From Streptomyces sp. Q6 (GTDB taxonomy: Bacteria; Actinomycetota; Actinomycetes; Streptomycetales; Streptomycetaceae), in the NCBI RefSeq assembly GCF_036967205.1, contig NZ_CP146022.1, positions 3,472,001 through 3,536,000 of the forward strand: a stretch of DNA of 64,000 bases, written 5' to 3'. The position numbers and the translations under genes are program-made. Below the pieces are notes generated by a model. That model ran no database searches. It was given only the letters and a program-made list of their open reading frames with translations, and was not told the DNA's origin. Positions 53,535-58,075 of this stretch are shown here, piece by piece (position 1 is the stretch's first letter; each line of letters starts with the position of its first letter).

Positions 53535-53687
53535 CCCGGTTCCGCCGCGGCCGCCCCGTCCGGGTGAACGGAACATGTACGCGCATGGAACCCGGCCCCC
53601 CGGGCGACCCTCTAGCCAGGTGAACCACCTGAACCGAGGCGCGTGCCCGATCGACCGCTGCCTCCACAGCGGACGGAGAGCACCACC

Positions 53688-55703
53688 ATGCGGAAGAGAC
53701 CTGCGATACCGCAGCCCGATTCGCGAGGTAAGAGCGGTATCTCCCGGCGCAGTCTCGTCGTCGGCACCGCCGTCGCCGGCGCTCTCACCGCCTGTTCCCG
53801 CGTCACCCCCGCTCCCCCGCCGCACACCACCGCCCCGTCCCCCGCGTCGGGCCGCCCCGCCGCCCAGGCCGAGCGTGCCCTGCTGCTCCAGGTCCTCGCC
53901 CACCCCGACGACGACCTGTACTTCATGAACCCGGACACCCGGCAGGCACTGTCCGCCGGGACTCCGCTCGTCTGCGTCTACGTCACCGCCGGCGAGGCCG
54001 ACGGCGTGAACCGGACGCCGACGGACCGCGCCCCCGCCCCGAACAAGGCCGCCTACTCCGCCGCCCGCCACCAGGGCCTGCGCCAGTCGTACGCGACCCA
54101 GCTCGGCCTGCCCGTCTTCACCCCCTGGCAGACGGGCGTGCTGCGCCTGCCGGGCGGCTTCCGCGCCGAGGTCGACACCCTCGAACACCAGGGCCGCCGC
54201 GTCGAGTTGGTGTACCTGAACCTCGCGATGCACACCCCGGCGGGCCACATGGGCGTCCCCGCGCTCTGGCGCGACCGCGGCCTCCTCCTGCGCACACTCG
54301 TCCCGGACGGCGCACCGCTGCGCGCCGTCCAGACGTACGACTACGACTCCCTGGTCGATGTCCTCGTCGGGCTCTTCGAGCGCTACCGGCCGACCCTCGT
54401 GCAGACCCTCGACCCCGACCCGGACATCCAGCTCAGTGACCGGATCACACAGATCCGCGACAGCGAGCAGCCCGGCTACTCGGACCACGCCGACCACACC
54501 GCCGTCGCCTGTTTCAGCTGGGCCGCGCTGATCCGCTGGGCACAGGAGGCCAAGGGCGGGCCGCCCGCGTTCGTGGCCACCGCCTTCCGCGGCTACTACA
54601 ACCACCACTGGCCCAAGAACCTCCCGCCCCAGATCCTGGACCAGAAGGCCGCCCAGCTCGTCCCGTACGGCGCGGCCCCCGACTGGAGCTGCGGCAACCC
54701 GTCCGGCTGCGGCGACTACAACGTCGGCGGCGACCGCCCCCTCACCAACCGCAAGGGCTGGGTCCGCGCCACCCACCACCGCTATCCGGGCCCCCGGCTC
54801 GCGCTCGCCGAGAACGCCGACGGCCGCGTCACGGCGTACGGCGTCCTCGGCCTGCGCGCGGTGCGGTACGAGGAGCGGGCCGACGGGAGCGGCGCGTTCG
54901 GCGCCCCCGTCGACCTCGGCGGCGGCCCGCTCGCTCCGGTGCTCGGCAGCGCCGTACTGCCCGGCGGCCGCCACCTGGTGTTCGGCCTGCGGCTCGCGGC
55001 GATCGAGGGCAGGGGCGGCCCCGACGTGCGGGAGATCGTGGTCCTGGAGCGGCGCGGCCCGCGCGCGTACGGCTCCTGGACGGGTCTCGGCAACCCCGAG
55101 AGCGACGCCGACCGCGGTCGCCGGATCGGGGTCCCGGTCGCCGTCACCGCCCCCGACGGCCGCGTCCACCTCTTCGTACGCACCGCGGACCAGGGCATCA
55201 GCACCCGCGTGCGCGCCACGGCCGGGACCTGGTCGCCGTGGCGCGACCTCGGCGGCGGTCCCGTGCAGGACGGGCTCACCGCGGTCGTCGGGGACGACCG
55301 GCAGGTGCACGTGTACGCGCCCGGCCACTCCACCGTGCACCACTGGACCCCGGCGGGACCCGACCCGCTCACCGGTCTGCCCACCCCCGCCGACGCGATA
55401 GCCGCGGCGGGCAGCCGCCTCTACTACCGGCCCCCGGCCGCCGACCGGCTGCTCTCCCCCGGCGGCCCGGACGTGGAGTTCCCCGGGTACGGACCGGTGA
55501 CGGCCGCGGGGCCCTACCTCCTGGGCCGCGATGTCACCGGCCGCGTCCAGCTCCTGCACGACGGCCGGATCACCCGCCCGGTCACGGCCCCGGTCACGCT
55601 CGACGGCCCGGCGCTGCTCGCGGGCCGGCTCGGGCCGACGGCGGCGGGCCTGTCCCCCGATGCCCGGCCCTGGCTGTGGCGGCCCTCCCAGGCGAAGGCC
55701 TGA
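53688..55703 (+). CDS. secreted PIG-L deacetylase with C-terminal beta-propeller-like domain
   Basis: 671 residues, ATG 53688 with GGAGAG eight nt upstream. A Tat-type lipoprotein signal: SRRSLVVG at about 19-26 and a lipobox ending at Cys36. The PIG-L domain runs from about 66 to 330 with LAHPDDDLYF (72-76 HPDDD), and DHADHTAVA, the zinc ligands of N-acetylglucosaminylphosphatidylinositol deacetylase-like enzymes. From about 390 to the end repeated blades of about 45 residues (such as LAPVLGSAVLPGGRHLVFGL and VAVTAPDGRVHLFVRT) resemble a lectin-type propeller. Likely deacetylates a cell-surface or external glycan; substrate unknown. Confidence 0.87.
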   Translation: MRKRPAIPQPDSRGKSGISRRSLVVGTAVAGALTACSRVTPAPPPHTTAPSPASGRPAAQAERALLLQVLAHPDDDLYFMNPDTRQALSAGTPLVCVYVTAGEADGVNRTPTDRAPAPNKAAYSAARHQGLRQSYATQLGLPVFTPWQTGVLRLPGGFRAEVDTLEHQGRRVELVYLNLAMHTPAGHMGVPALWRDRGLLLRTLVPDGAPLRAVQTYDYDSLVDVLVGLFERYRPTLVQTLDPDPDIQLSDRITQIRDSEQPGYSDHADHTAVACFSWAALIRWAQEAKGGPPAFVATAFRGYYNHHWPKNLPPQILDQKAAQLVPYGAAPDWSCGNPSGCGDYNVGGDRPLTNRKGWVRATHHRYPGPRLALAENADGRVTAYGVLGLRAVRYEERADGSGAFGAPVDLGGGPLAPVLGSAVLPGGRHLVFGLRLAAIEGRGGPDVREIVVLERRGPRAYGSWTGLGNPESDADRGRRIGVPVAVTAPDGRVHLFVRTADQGISTRVRATAGTWSPWRDLGGGPVQDGLTAVVGDDRQVHVYAPGHSTVHHWTPAGPDPLTGLPTPADAIAAAGSRLYYRPPAADRLLSPGGPDVEFPGYGPVTAAGPYLLGRDVTGRVQLLHDGRITRPVTAPVTLDGPALLAGRLGPTAAGLSPDARPWLWRPSQAKA

Positions 55704-55840: not shown

Positions 55841-56296
55841 ATGTCATTCGACGAGGAGTGGGCCCGGTTAAAGGCCGACGCCCTGGAACGCCGCTCGACG
55901 GGGATGCGGCTCAACCAGCTCCCGGCGGACGCCGGTGGCGGAGGCGGGAACACGGGCGCGCCCGCGGCCGGCACCCTCATCGCCAAGGCCGAGTCCATCA
56001 ACGGCAACGCGAACCTGCTGATCGAGATAGCCGGTCTGCTCCAGGAGGGCAGACCCGACGCCGAACTCACCACCCTGGCCCGCGATCCGCGCGCCCACGA
56101 GGACGTCGCGGCGGCGGTCACCCGGTTCGCCACGTTCGCCGGTGACCAGTACCTGGACGCGGTCGCCCTGTTCGCCGCGCTCTCCACCAAGCTCCGTACC
56201 GCGGGCGGCGACTTCGTGAAGATCGAGGACGACACCGCGCAGCGCTTCCTGGACAAGGTCCTCGACGGCAGTTACCTCTCACCGGAGGCGCGATGA
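55841..56296 (+). CDS. small alpha-helical partner protein, WXG100/LXG-like context
   Basis: 151 residues beginning MSFDEEWARLKADALERR. N-terminal helix, a Gly/Ala-rich linker (about 30-45) and two further helical stretches. No signal peptide and no membrane segment. AAGGGGGACGAC precedes the ATG. It overlaps the next gene by ATGA. Size, helical content and position next to a WXG-like effector suggest a type VII-secretion chaperone or co-substrate, but no WXG motif is present, so this is inference. Confidence 0.7.
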   Translation: MSFDEEWARLKADALERRSTGMRLNQLPADAGGGGGNTGAPAAGTLIAKAESINGNANLLIEIAGLLQEGRPDAELTTLARDPRAHEDVAAAVTRFATFAGDQYLDAVALFAALSTKLRTAGGDFVKIEDDTAQRFLDKVLDGSYLSPEAR

Positions 56297-57681
56297 GCAC
56301 CGGCATCAGCCACCGCAAGGACGTCGAGTTCCTGGAGAGTTGCAGCCCGCCGCTCGTCCAGCGCAACGCCGACGAGTTCAAGCGCGTACACGACCTGCTG
56401 ACGTCGGCCGATCCGTCCGCCGAGCGGGCCGAGAAGCACACGCAGTGGAAGAGCGAGGGCAGCACCCACTACGAGGGCCGCCTCAGCGAGGGCCGCAAGC
56501 TGGTCACCCTGCTCGCCGACGGCTACGCGCAGGCCGCGACGGCCCTGAGCGACTACGCGGCCGCCCTGACCACCGCCAAGTCGTACTACTCCAGCGGCAA
56601 GCGGACCGAGCAGTCCCTCGCCGACCTGATCCACACCAAGGGCACGGCCATCACCCGCGAGGCCCAGGAGGCCGAGCCCATGCGGCAGTGGGAGGACATG
56701 CGGGCCACCACCGGCGTCATGGACTTCTTCGCCGAGCTGACCATGGACGTCGACGACATCAAGGACGAGGCGAACCGGCTGCACGACGCGGCGGGCTCCG
56801 ACTTCCACCTGGCCAAGACCACGGAGAAGGAGGCCCGCGACCTCTGCACGCACCGGCTGAAGCAGGCGTACGACATGGTGCCGGAGTTCCGTACGTACGC
56901 GGGCCGCACCGATCTCGTGTCGGCCATCCCGGAGCTGCGCCGCGAGGCCGCCGAGGCGAGCTCCAACCCGCTCACCCACCTGCCCGGCAGCGGTCCGAAG
57001 CAGGACTACTACCCCACGGCCGGCGACCAGATCGTCTCGCCGACGCTGCGCGACATCCGGCTCCAGGTCGCGGGGCTGCCCGGCGCCCGCGACAACTACT
57101 GGAACCCGCCGGGGAACGACCAGGAACGCGCCGAGTGGATCACGGCGAACAAGGACATCATCAACGCCGCGGCCCGCAACTCCGGGCTCCCGCCGGACAT
57201 GGTCGCCGGTATCGCCTGGCAGGAGATCGGCGGACAGCCCGGCATCCTCGACGACATGACCGACACCATCCGTGAGCAGGCCGACTCCCCGCTGAGTCCG
57301 ATCATCCCGGAGAACCTGCCCTGGCGGCTCGGCGGCGACCCCGACAACACGTCGATGGGCCCCATCGCGATCCAGGTGCGGCGCGGCGCCGAGGTCCTCG
57401 GCTACGACCCGGACCACCTCACGGACCAGCAGCGCGGCATGGTGGAGGAGGCCCTCCAGGATCCGGCGCAGAACATGTTCATCGCCTCCGAGTACCTGGC
57501 CCAGCTCAAGGCGGAGAGCGAGTTCGCGAACGTACCGCCCGAGGAGATGACCCCGGCCCAGTACCAGGAGCTCGCCGCGCGCTACAACGGCGGCCCGTAC
57601 TGGCAGTCCGAGGACGCCCAGGGCTACGGGCGCGGCTTCAGCAACAACCTGGACGACGCGAGGAAAGCGCTGCGCTCATGA
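56293..57681 (+). CDS. putative type VII-secreted lytic transglycosylase-like protein
   Basis: 462 residues. The N-terminal half (1 to about 220) is long and helical with a WxxxG-like QWKSEGSTHYEG at 51-62, resembling WXG100/LXG delivery domains. A linker of about 40 residues leads to a lysozyme-fold C-terminus: IAWQEIGGQPG with Glu311 as the expected acid, SMGPIAIQ at 354-361, and ARYNGGPYW at 429-437, the YNGG motif of SLT/lytic transglycosylases. No signal peptide, so Sec export is unlikely; export by a type VII (ESX) route would fit. Coupled by ATGA junctions at both ends to 55841-56296 and 57678-58001. Confidence 0.8.
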   Translation: MSTGISHRKDVEFLESCSPPLVQRNADEFKRVHDLLTSADPSAERAEKHTQWKSEGSTHYEGRLSEGRKLVTLLADGYAQAATALSDYAAALTTAKSYYSSGKRTEQSLADLIHTKGTAITREAQEAEPMRQWEDMRATTGVMDFFAELTMDVDDIKDEANRLHDAAGSDFHLAKTTEKEARDLCTHRLKQAYDMVPEFRTYAGRTDLVSAIPELRREAAEASSNPLTHLPGSGPKQDYYPTAGDQIVSPTLRDIRLQVAGLPGARDNYWNPPGNDQERAEWITANKDIINAAARNSGLPPDMVAGIAWQEIGGQPGILDDMTDTIREQADSPLSPIIPENLPWRLGGDPDNTSMGPIAIQVRRGAEVLGYDPDHLTDQQRGMVEEALQDPAQNMFIASEYLAQLKAESEFANVPPEEMTPAQYQELAARYNGGPYWQSEDAQGYGRGFSNNLDDARKALRS

Positions 57682-58001
57682 GCCACCCCACCCTCCCGGA
57701 CCCGGAGATCGCCGACCGCGGCTGTGTGCGCCTCGTGCTCGCCGTCCCGTTCATCCTGCTCACGCTGGTCGCGGCCTTCTTCTGCTGGACGGCCGTGACG
57801 ATCGTGCCGTCGGGCCGCTGGGACGACGACGCGTACCGCGGCATCGAGGTGTCCTGCTTCTTCACCGTGTTCCTGGCGGGCGCGGTCGTGATCCTGTGGC
57901 TGCTGCCCTCGGTGCGTCGCCTCATGAGCTGGCCGTGGGTGGTCCCGGCCGCGGCCCTGCTGGCGGTCGGCGCGGTGCGCTGGGCGACCTTCTCCCCGTA
58001 G
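57678..58001 (+). CDS. small membrane protein, possible immunity or anchor partner
   Basis: 107 residues with three hydrophobic segments (about 20-43, 59-79, 86-104). It starts inside the stop of the transglycosylase-like gene (ATGA) and ends the operon, 37 nt before the bidirectional terminator. Immunity proteins against peptidoglycan hydrolases are often membrane proteins encoded directly downstream, but no family is recognised. Could also be a membrane anchor. Confidence 0.75.
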   Translation: MSHPTLPDPEIADRGCVRLVLAVPFILLTLVAAFFCWTAVTIVPSGRWDDDAYRGIEVSCFFTVFLAGAVVILWLLPSVRRLMSWPWVVPAAALLAVGAVRWATFSP

Positions 58002-58037: not shown

Positions 58038-58075
58038 GAGAGGGCCCGTACGACCGAAGTCGTACGGGCCCTCTC
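58038..58075. terminator. bidirectional terminator between the 55841-58001 module and tuf
   Basis: Perfect 17-bp arms around a cgaa tetraloop. It ends the rightward three-gene operon and the leftward tuf transcript (tuf stop at 58122). Very stable; T tracts are absent on both sides. Confidence 0.9.

Follow-up and report, generated by a model that had tools for sequence, protein, structure and literature searches.

A three-gene cassette of Streptomyces predicted to encode a type VII-exported muramidase, its targeting partner and a membrane immunity protein

Results

The locus and its three genes

The window analysed in this study is a stretch of 64,000 nucleotides from the chromosome of Streptomyces sp. 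Q6 (contig NZ_CP146022.1; C1:3472001-3536000), a genome of 8.95 Mb. The element under study consists of three plus-strand open reading frames (ORFs), which encode a small partner protein, P (55841..56296, 151 amino acids), a larger effector, E (56293..57681, 462 amino acids), and a membrane protein, M (57678..58001, 107 amino acids), with an ATGA overlap at each junction. An earlier note on this DNA, made from the sequence alone, had reported these genes, sizes and overlaps, together with a PIG-L gene upstream and a 17-bp terminator downstream, and all of them were found. The module is located 3′ of the ribosomal-protein operon and of the PIG-L gene (53643-55703, identified by Pfam) and 5′ of the convergent tuf-fusA genes. 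Direct reading of the sequence reveals a perfect 17-bp hairpin at 58038..58075, between the module and the convergent tuf, which has a CGAA loop and no T-run and is likely a terminator common to both. The closest named locus, L014 of Streptomyces sp. SID14478, is 93% identical. A Pfam scan returned no match to P or M, and its matches to E were all below threshold, with SLT at residues 383-435 as the best. No integrase-like gene was noticed among the neighbours of the module in the window, where no search aimed at integrases was made.

The effector

In the structural model of E, which was compared by VIA, a predicted PPE-like helical bundle (residues 1-206, 56293..56910) is joined to a lysozyme or lytic transglycosylase-like domain, the predicted toxin domain (residues 258-462, 57064..57678). 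The best fold match of the modelled catalytic domain is Tse3, a muramidase of the type VI secretion system (T6SS). The lysozyme-type helical fold that characterizes the SLT superfamily is present in the model, in agreement with the C-terminal lysozyme fold proposed in the earlier note. Because the Pfam SLT score of E, 18.1 bits, is below the gathering score of 21.3 bits, we place E outside PF01464 and regard it as a divergent relative. Glu311, the predicted catalytic residue (codon 57223..57225), and Tyr-Asn-Gly-Gly at 431-434 occur where the note had placed them, and E311, Q361, Y431 and N432 are invariant in 31/31 aligned homologues. A sequence search with E against solved structures yielded no match.

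The N-terminal half of E had been called WXG-like. This reading is refined, as PPE proteins appear to fit best: in the model, residues 2-202 superpose on PPE15, PPE4 and PPE41, no WXG100 or LXG profile matches E, and the invariant Trp52 (codon 56446-56448) is part of W-x-S instead of W-x-G in 30 of the 31 homologues. There is also no Pfam PPE match, and the N-terminus has no Pro-Pro-Glu; at most, E may work like a PPE protein. No similarity was detected between this half and the N-termini of other P-linked proteins. A crude hydropathy scan, which is not a signal-peptide predictor, found no hydrophobic segment at the N-terminus of E (best 12-residue window 0.79) and nothing resembling a Sec or Tat signal, as the note had claimed for Sec.

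The partner and its eccC-linked family

P begins with a conserved FDEEW...MRLNQLP motif (55841..55921), common to P-family paralogues encoded near eccC and 5′ of other large proteins, and continues with a linker rich in Gly and a part predicted to be helical. Its F125-x-x-x-E129 (56213..56227) is a candidate type VII export motif, and the [FY]xxx[DE] pattern expected of type VII partners is present in 43/47 partners; a second, C-terminal motif, Y145-x-x-x-E149 (56273..56287), conforms to [YF]xxx[DE] in 41/47. The same crude scan found no hydrophobic segment at the start of P (best window 1.41, at residue 56). No WXG100-like profile match was obtained (best E-value 0.088, in one of 26 members), and the P profile retrieved only two designed proteins among solved structures (E-values 0.35 and 5.6).

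Of the 392 Streptomyces genomes sampled, 178 have a P match, in most cases because other small proteins share the N-terminal motif; P aligns with these paralogues by profile with a probability of 99.2 (E-value 2.7e-19). Twenty regions with P-motif proteins were retrieved, and 17 of them were inspected for the downstream gene; in 11 of the 17, a large protein follows whose N-terminal region looks WXG- or PPE-like by reading. Six such proteins were submitted to Pfam, which gave two weak PPE and two weak WXG100 matches, all under the curated cut-offs. In L102, L106 and L119, a P-family gene stands directly 3′ of a gene of EccC size, which was confirmed as EccC in L119, the only one scanned. Moreover, a profile of the P motif finds a member in 9 of 20 eccC regions (389,520 bases; 19 of 30 listed eccC loci plus that of strain Q6) vs none of 40 controls (390,851 bases; Fisher p 1.1e-5), with six of the nine members lying no more than 0.5 kb 3′ of eccC. 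Of the ten typed paralogues that seed this profile, two are themselves directly eccC-linked, and the profile misses a short P remnant in control region L193 and a P match at the edge of eccC region L259. The eccC region of strain Q6 has no P-family member by this profile.

The earlier note had proposed a check of co-occurrence with eccC across Streptomyces. In 150 sampled genomes, counted by hand and with no correction for shared ancestry, 67 of the 139 whose eccC exceeds the cut-off have a P-family match vs 0 of the other 11 (p = 0.0012), and E is present in 23 of 139 vs 0 of 11, which is not significant (p = 0.22) because eccC exceeds the cut-off in 139 of the 150. The 11 genomes under the cut-off still show weaker EccC-like matches. 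In two further P-linked proteins (L106:4986-6860 and L113:6543-8327), Pfam recognizes Abhydrolase_8 (E-values 2.6e-33 and 7.9e-31), which suggests that additional toxin types stand behind the P family.

Distribution and mobility of the cassette

Among the 392 Streptomyces genomes, 64 have some E match: by our own count, 42 carry a near-full-length E (one with an internal TGA), and of the other 22, three carry a distant relative in the giant proteins described below and the rest only fragments. Searching named genomes yielded 30 loci, of which 29 bear the label Streptomyces and one Microtetraspora, and a class-wide sample gave an E match in 11 of 394 genomes and 2 of 137 genera. Two Streptomyces linear plasmids carry the full P-E-M set adjoining insertion sequence (IS) elements. 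According to their flanking genes, which differ, 31 loci fall into 17 sites; this number is an upper bound, because some loci are single only through a nearby contig end.

The three genes are co-conserved. We pooled L001-L070, L141-L159, L230, L232, L262 and L263 and removed identical proteins and copies covering <95% of the query, which left 58 distinct full-length E. P is encoded directly upstream in 58/58, as expected of a type VII targeting partner (PE- or Lap-like), and M downstream in 56/58; the exceptions are L004, with an unmatched three-transmembrane (three-TM) protein of 114 amino acids, and L067, with none. Gene contents, when compared, indicate a cassette that passes from one genome to another and often decays, with M staying behind. 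In L141:4474-15924, an insertion of ~9 kb splits the E gene, and M is still an open frame.

Two observations concern the neighbourhood. The PIG-L protein has a weak Tat-signal match, and at most of the other sites compared, the cassette comes without the PIG-L gene. In L110, another Streptomyces locus, the tuf-rpsJ interval carries a different P-like gene and a toxin-like protein of ~750 amino acids; this interval may therefore be an insertion hotspot.

The membrane protein

M has three hydrophobic segments (19-37, 58-76 and 82-100), in line with the three-TM protein proposed in the earlier note, and the acidic loop between segments 1 and 2 is predicted from charge balance to be outside. An M match was obtained in 92/392 Streptomyces genomes vs 64/392 for E. 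By our own count, 38 genomes have M and no E match, some of these M matches being weak or partial, and at that threshold 10 have E and no M match; three of the 10 have the giant-protein type, another has a contig end, and in G073 an M is detectable by tblastn. E is broken in 25 loci (L121-L141 and L143-L146); M accompanies the remnant in 23 of them (not in L131 or L136) and is an open frame with a start in 21 of the 23, and a near-full-length P remains in only one of the 25 (L141). We also examined 40 further M regions: 33 of the 38 M-only genomes supplied 35 of these, and the other five are extra copies from other genomes. A script found an M frame of 95-135 amino acids in 23 of the 35, including the frameshifted L185; in the remaining M-only regions, M is broken, partial, run on or without a start. 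A short E remnant adjoins M in 4 of the 40 (L162, L171, L183 and L191).

In pairwise comparisons at a synonymous divergence (dS) of 0.1-0.5, omega was 0.39 in 38 pairs of orphan M, 0.51 in 96 pairs of M from intact loci, 0.21 in 90 pairs of E and 0.24 in 67 pairs of P, and simulated neutral sequences gave a median of 1.06 with a 5% quantile of 0.66. For nearest-neighbour pairs of orphan M, the median omega is 0.48, with values >=1 in 8 of 43. We take these values as signs of purifying selection on M in close pairs. Of 44 orphan M, 40 retain D49, 43 retain W87 and 43 retain R101. Tandem duplicates of M occur in L036, L040, L055, L056, L057, L059 and L061, and in L036 a further fragment of the effector C-terminus is accompanied by an M of its own. 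The note had considered M as either an immunity or an anchor protein; because M is often kept where E is gone, a role in immunity appears better supported.

The same domain outside the cassette

A tblastn search of plasmids matched 14 records, three from Streptomyces and 11 from Serratia, Rahnella, E. coli, Cronobacter and Nostoc, over residues of about 268-453 with 26-30% identity, and eight of the 11 were examined. Four stretches, one from E. coli, two from Rahnella and one from Serratia, show the order hcp, effector, DUF2645; the E. coli record is labelled plasmid yet has genes of the chromosome, parE and qseC among them. In another Serratia, L273, hcp lies downstream of the effector in the opposite orientation. 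No hcp is annotated in the stretches from two Cronobacter plasmids, where the next gene encodes a 98-amino-acid protein; the one of these that was scanned gave no DUF2645 match. Of seven enterobacterial neighbour proteins, six (L264, L265, L266, L268, L272 and L273) have three hydrophobic segments and a first loop longer than that of M, and the one in L271 has two segments. Because no homology between M and DUF2645 is detectable by profile, we call the two analogous. An alignment of ten domains, four from Streptomyces and six from enterobacteria, shows Glu, S-x-G and Gln common to 10/10.

In three Streptomyces genomes, the domain ends a protein of 2,884-3,134 amino acids (L147:452-9106, L274:4323-13727 and L275:4647-13421), followed by an ORF of 99-143 amino acids with three hydrophobic segments; Pfam confirmed RHS repeats in L147, the only giant protein scanned. 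In Nostoc (L267:1149-5624), the domain ends a plasmid protein of 1,491 amino acids with weak M8 peptidase and PPC matches. As in polymorphic toxin-immunity systems, one predicted toxin domain thus appears on different delivery modules, with a candidate immunity gene downstream and with orphan and tandem copies, Nostoc being the exception. In its passages on a glucosaminidase toxin with a lysozyme-like fold, a 2012 survey of polymorphic toxins describes delivery by T6SS and PVC and does not tie the domain to type VII (PMC3482391).

The Escherichia coli gene ygiZ

One E. coli record (L265:4363-5894) has ygiZ, a DUF2645 gene, after hcp and a muramidase-like gene, and in the K-12 record (L270:2979-3311), ygiZ is located between mdaB and qseC, with neither hcp nor the effector there. 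According to megablast, the effector DNA is present in 1,254 and ygiZ in 4,566 of 5,426 complete E. coli genomes; at this sensitivity, at least 3,312 have ygiZ without the effector. A DUF2645 gene also occurs on a Pectobacterium plasmid (L269:2914-3246), with no hcp or effector annotated beside it. Because the toxin gene is often lost and the putative immunity gene kept in both phyla, E. coli ygiZ looks like an orphan immunity gene, as solitary M does, which is a prediction by analogy. In K-12, the predicted target of such immunity is a T6SS wall-cutting effector present in about a quarter of complete E. coli genomes. We consider it slightly better than an even chance that a single muramidase domain, usually followed by a three-TM immunity protein, is carried on type VII, T6SS Hcp and RHS modules and that ygiZ is an orphan of this kind. 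Among the papers listed by a full-text search, judged on titles and the starts of abstracts, none ties ygiZ or DUF2645 to immunity, and another search found no paper in which orphan immunity and lytic transglycosylase occur together with Hcp, type VI secretion and Escherichia coli.

Discussion

We believe, with a probability of about 0.7, that the cassette encodes a type VII-exported antibacterial muramidase, its targeting partner and a membrane immunity protein. The small helical P would pair with the PPE-like bundle of E and lead it to the ESX (type VII) machine present in most Streptomyces, through which E would be exported without a Sec signal. The C-terminal domain, given its fold and invariant residues, would cut the glycan strands of peptidoglycan, with Glu311 as the general acid/base, and the targets would be neighbouring, probably related, bacteria. 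M, as its gene order, topology and solitary retention suggest, would sit in the membrane with its acidic loop toward the wall and shield the producer and its siblings. The cassette would spread among genomes and decay, and M would remain as an orphan immunity gene. None of the three results that the earlier note had named as contrary to its interpretation, namely a model lacking the lysozyme fold, a lack of co-conservation and, as far as the crude hydropathy scan shows, export by Sec or Tat, was obtained, and that interpretation is supported overall. Between the competition and self-remodelling that it had left side by side, competition is favoured.

A role in self-remodelling, in which E opens the wall of the producer for the ESX machine, tip growth or sporulation, guided by P and with M as an anchor or restraint, would agree with a lysozyme-type fold beside a membrane partner, and a dedicated wall hydrolase for type VIIb is reported in Staphylococcus aureus (PMC13059805). 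However, a housekeeping enzyme is expected to be conserved with the ESX locus, and an E match is present in only 64 of the 392 Streptomyces genomes (full-length in 42), at up to 17 site groups among 31 loci; M is kept alone, and the domain also occurs on RHS-type and Hcp loci. We therefore regard self-remodelling as unlikely. We think it similarly improbable that the genes form a toxin-immunity module released by lysis or another route, with P as an intracellular inhibitor or chaperone. E is not statistically tied to eccC, and in strain Q6 the module is distant from it (3.528 Mb vs 6.286 Mb on C1), but P-family genes directly 3′ of eccC and 5′ of large proteins with weak WXG or PPE matches, the modelled PPE-like fold of E and the [FY]xxx[DE] motif of P all point to ESX. 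That a muralytic enzyme precedes a small three-TM protein also recalls the endolysin-holin pairs of phages, and a domesticated lysis cassette could have this layout. Nevertheless, a tblastn search of 50,697 phage records (E-value up to 0.01) gave no E match, and a phage origin of the module was rejected; a fixed partner with eccC-linked paralogues and a solitary holin in genomes without E would also be hard to explain, and we consider this origin very improbable.

Several observations weigh against a muramidase with a dedicated membrane immunity protein. In Nostoc, no ORF with at least two hydrophobic segments is found within ~1.5 kb of the domain, and another gene follows. Over a dS of 0.05-1.2, the median omega is higher, 0.91 for orphan M (774 pairs) and 0.68 for M of intact loci (928 pairs); codon bias and saturation inflate the ratio in this range, and weaker constraint on some orphan M is possible. 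Furthermore, P24, P77, R80 and R81 are kept in only 28-30 of the 44 orphan M, so that a sizeable share of these sequences, as aligned, either comes from subfamilies that have diverged or is drifting. Our confidence is slightly lower on account of the Nostoc exception and of the omega values over the wider dS range.

To our knowledge, the purpose of the ESX system of Streptomyces is largely open. The cassette offers a concrete candidate for an antibacterial ESX cargo in this genus, with a partner, a predicted catalytic residue and a putative immunity gene, and the wider eccC-linked partner family can be used as a search query. It also leads to the prediction that a Gram-positive cell is guarded from a wall-cutting toxin by a small membrane protein, and it provides a proposed function for ygiZ of E. 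coli K-12. Our literature search found no Streptomyces type VII muramidase among the titles and abstract starts considered.

Among known systems, the Tse3-Tsi3 pair of the Pseudomonas T6SS resembles the cassette in the modelled catalytic fold of E and in effector-immunity pairing; the N-terminal domain and the secretion system are different. M is a three-TM membrane protein, and Tsi3 is periplasmic. PMC3792639 presents Tse3 and Tsi3 as effector and immunity protein. In the enterobacterial Hcp-effector-DUF2645 (YgiZ) loci, the E domain is 29% identical over 172 residues to the protein of the E. coli record, the same Glu, S-x-G and Gln are invariant, and a small membrane protein is next; however, the setting is T6SS, neither a PPE-like domain nor P is present, and homology of DUF2645 with M is undetectable. 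The type VIIb LXG toxins with their Lap factors, such as TelC, share a small partner, a toxin, an immunity protein and a motif like the FxxxD that PMC9600955 reports in a partner. In contrast, the P-E-M cassette has a PPE-like rather than an LXG N-terminus, one partner rather than two, a muramidase-type toxin domain and an actinobacterial host, and no sequence match between the two was found. According to the passages of PMC12691689 on exported alarmone synthetases, Amycolatopsis loci encode a targeting factor, an LXG toxin and a small putative immunity gene in this order, and the cluster B synthetases of Streptomyces adjoin parts of the type VII system and putative immunity genes; the alarmone toxin acts in the cytoplasm, whereas the lysozyme-like E has a predicted target in the wall. 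The PE-PPE heterodimers of mycobacterial ESX-5 and ESX-3 are matched by the superposition of the modelled E bundle on PPE proteins and by the Y/FxxxD/E motif of P, and E departs from them in its lack of a Pfam PPE match and of a Pro-Pro-Glu start and in carrying a C-terminal catalytic domain.
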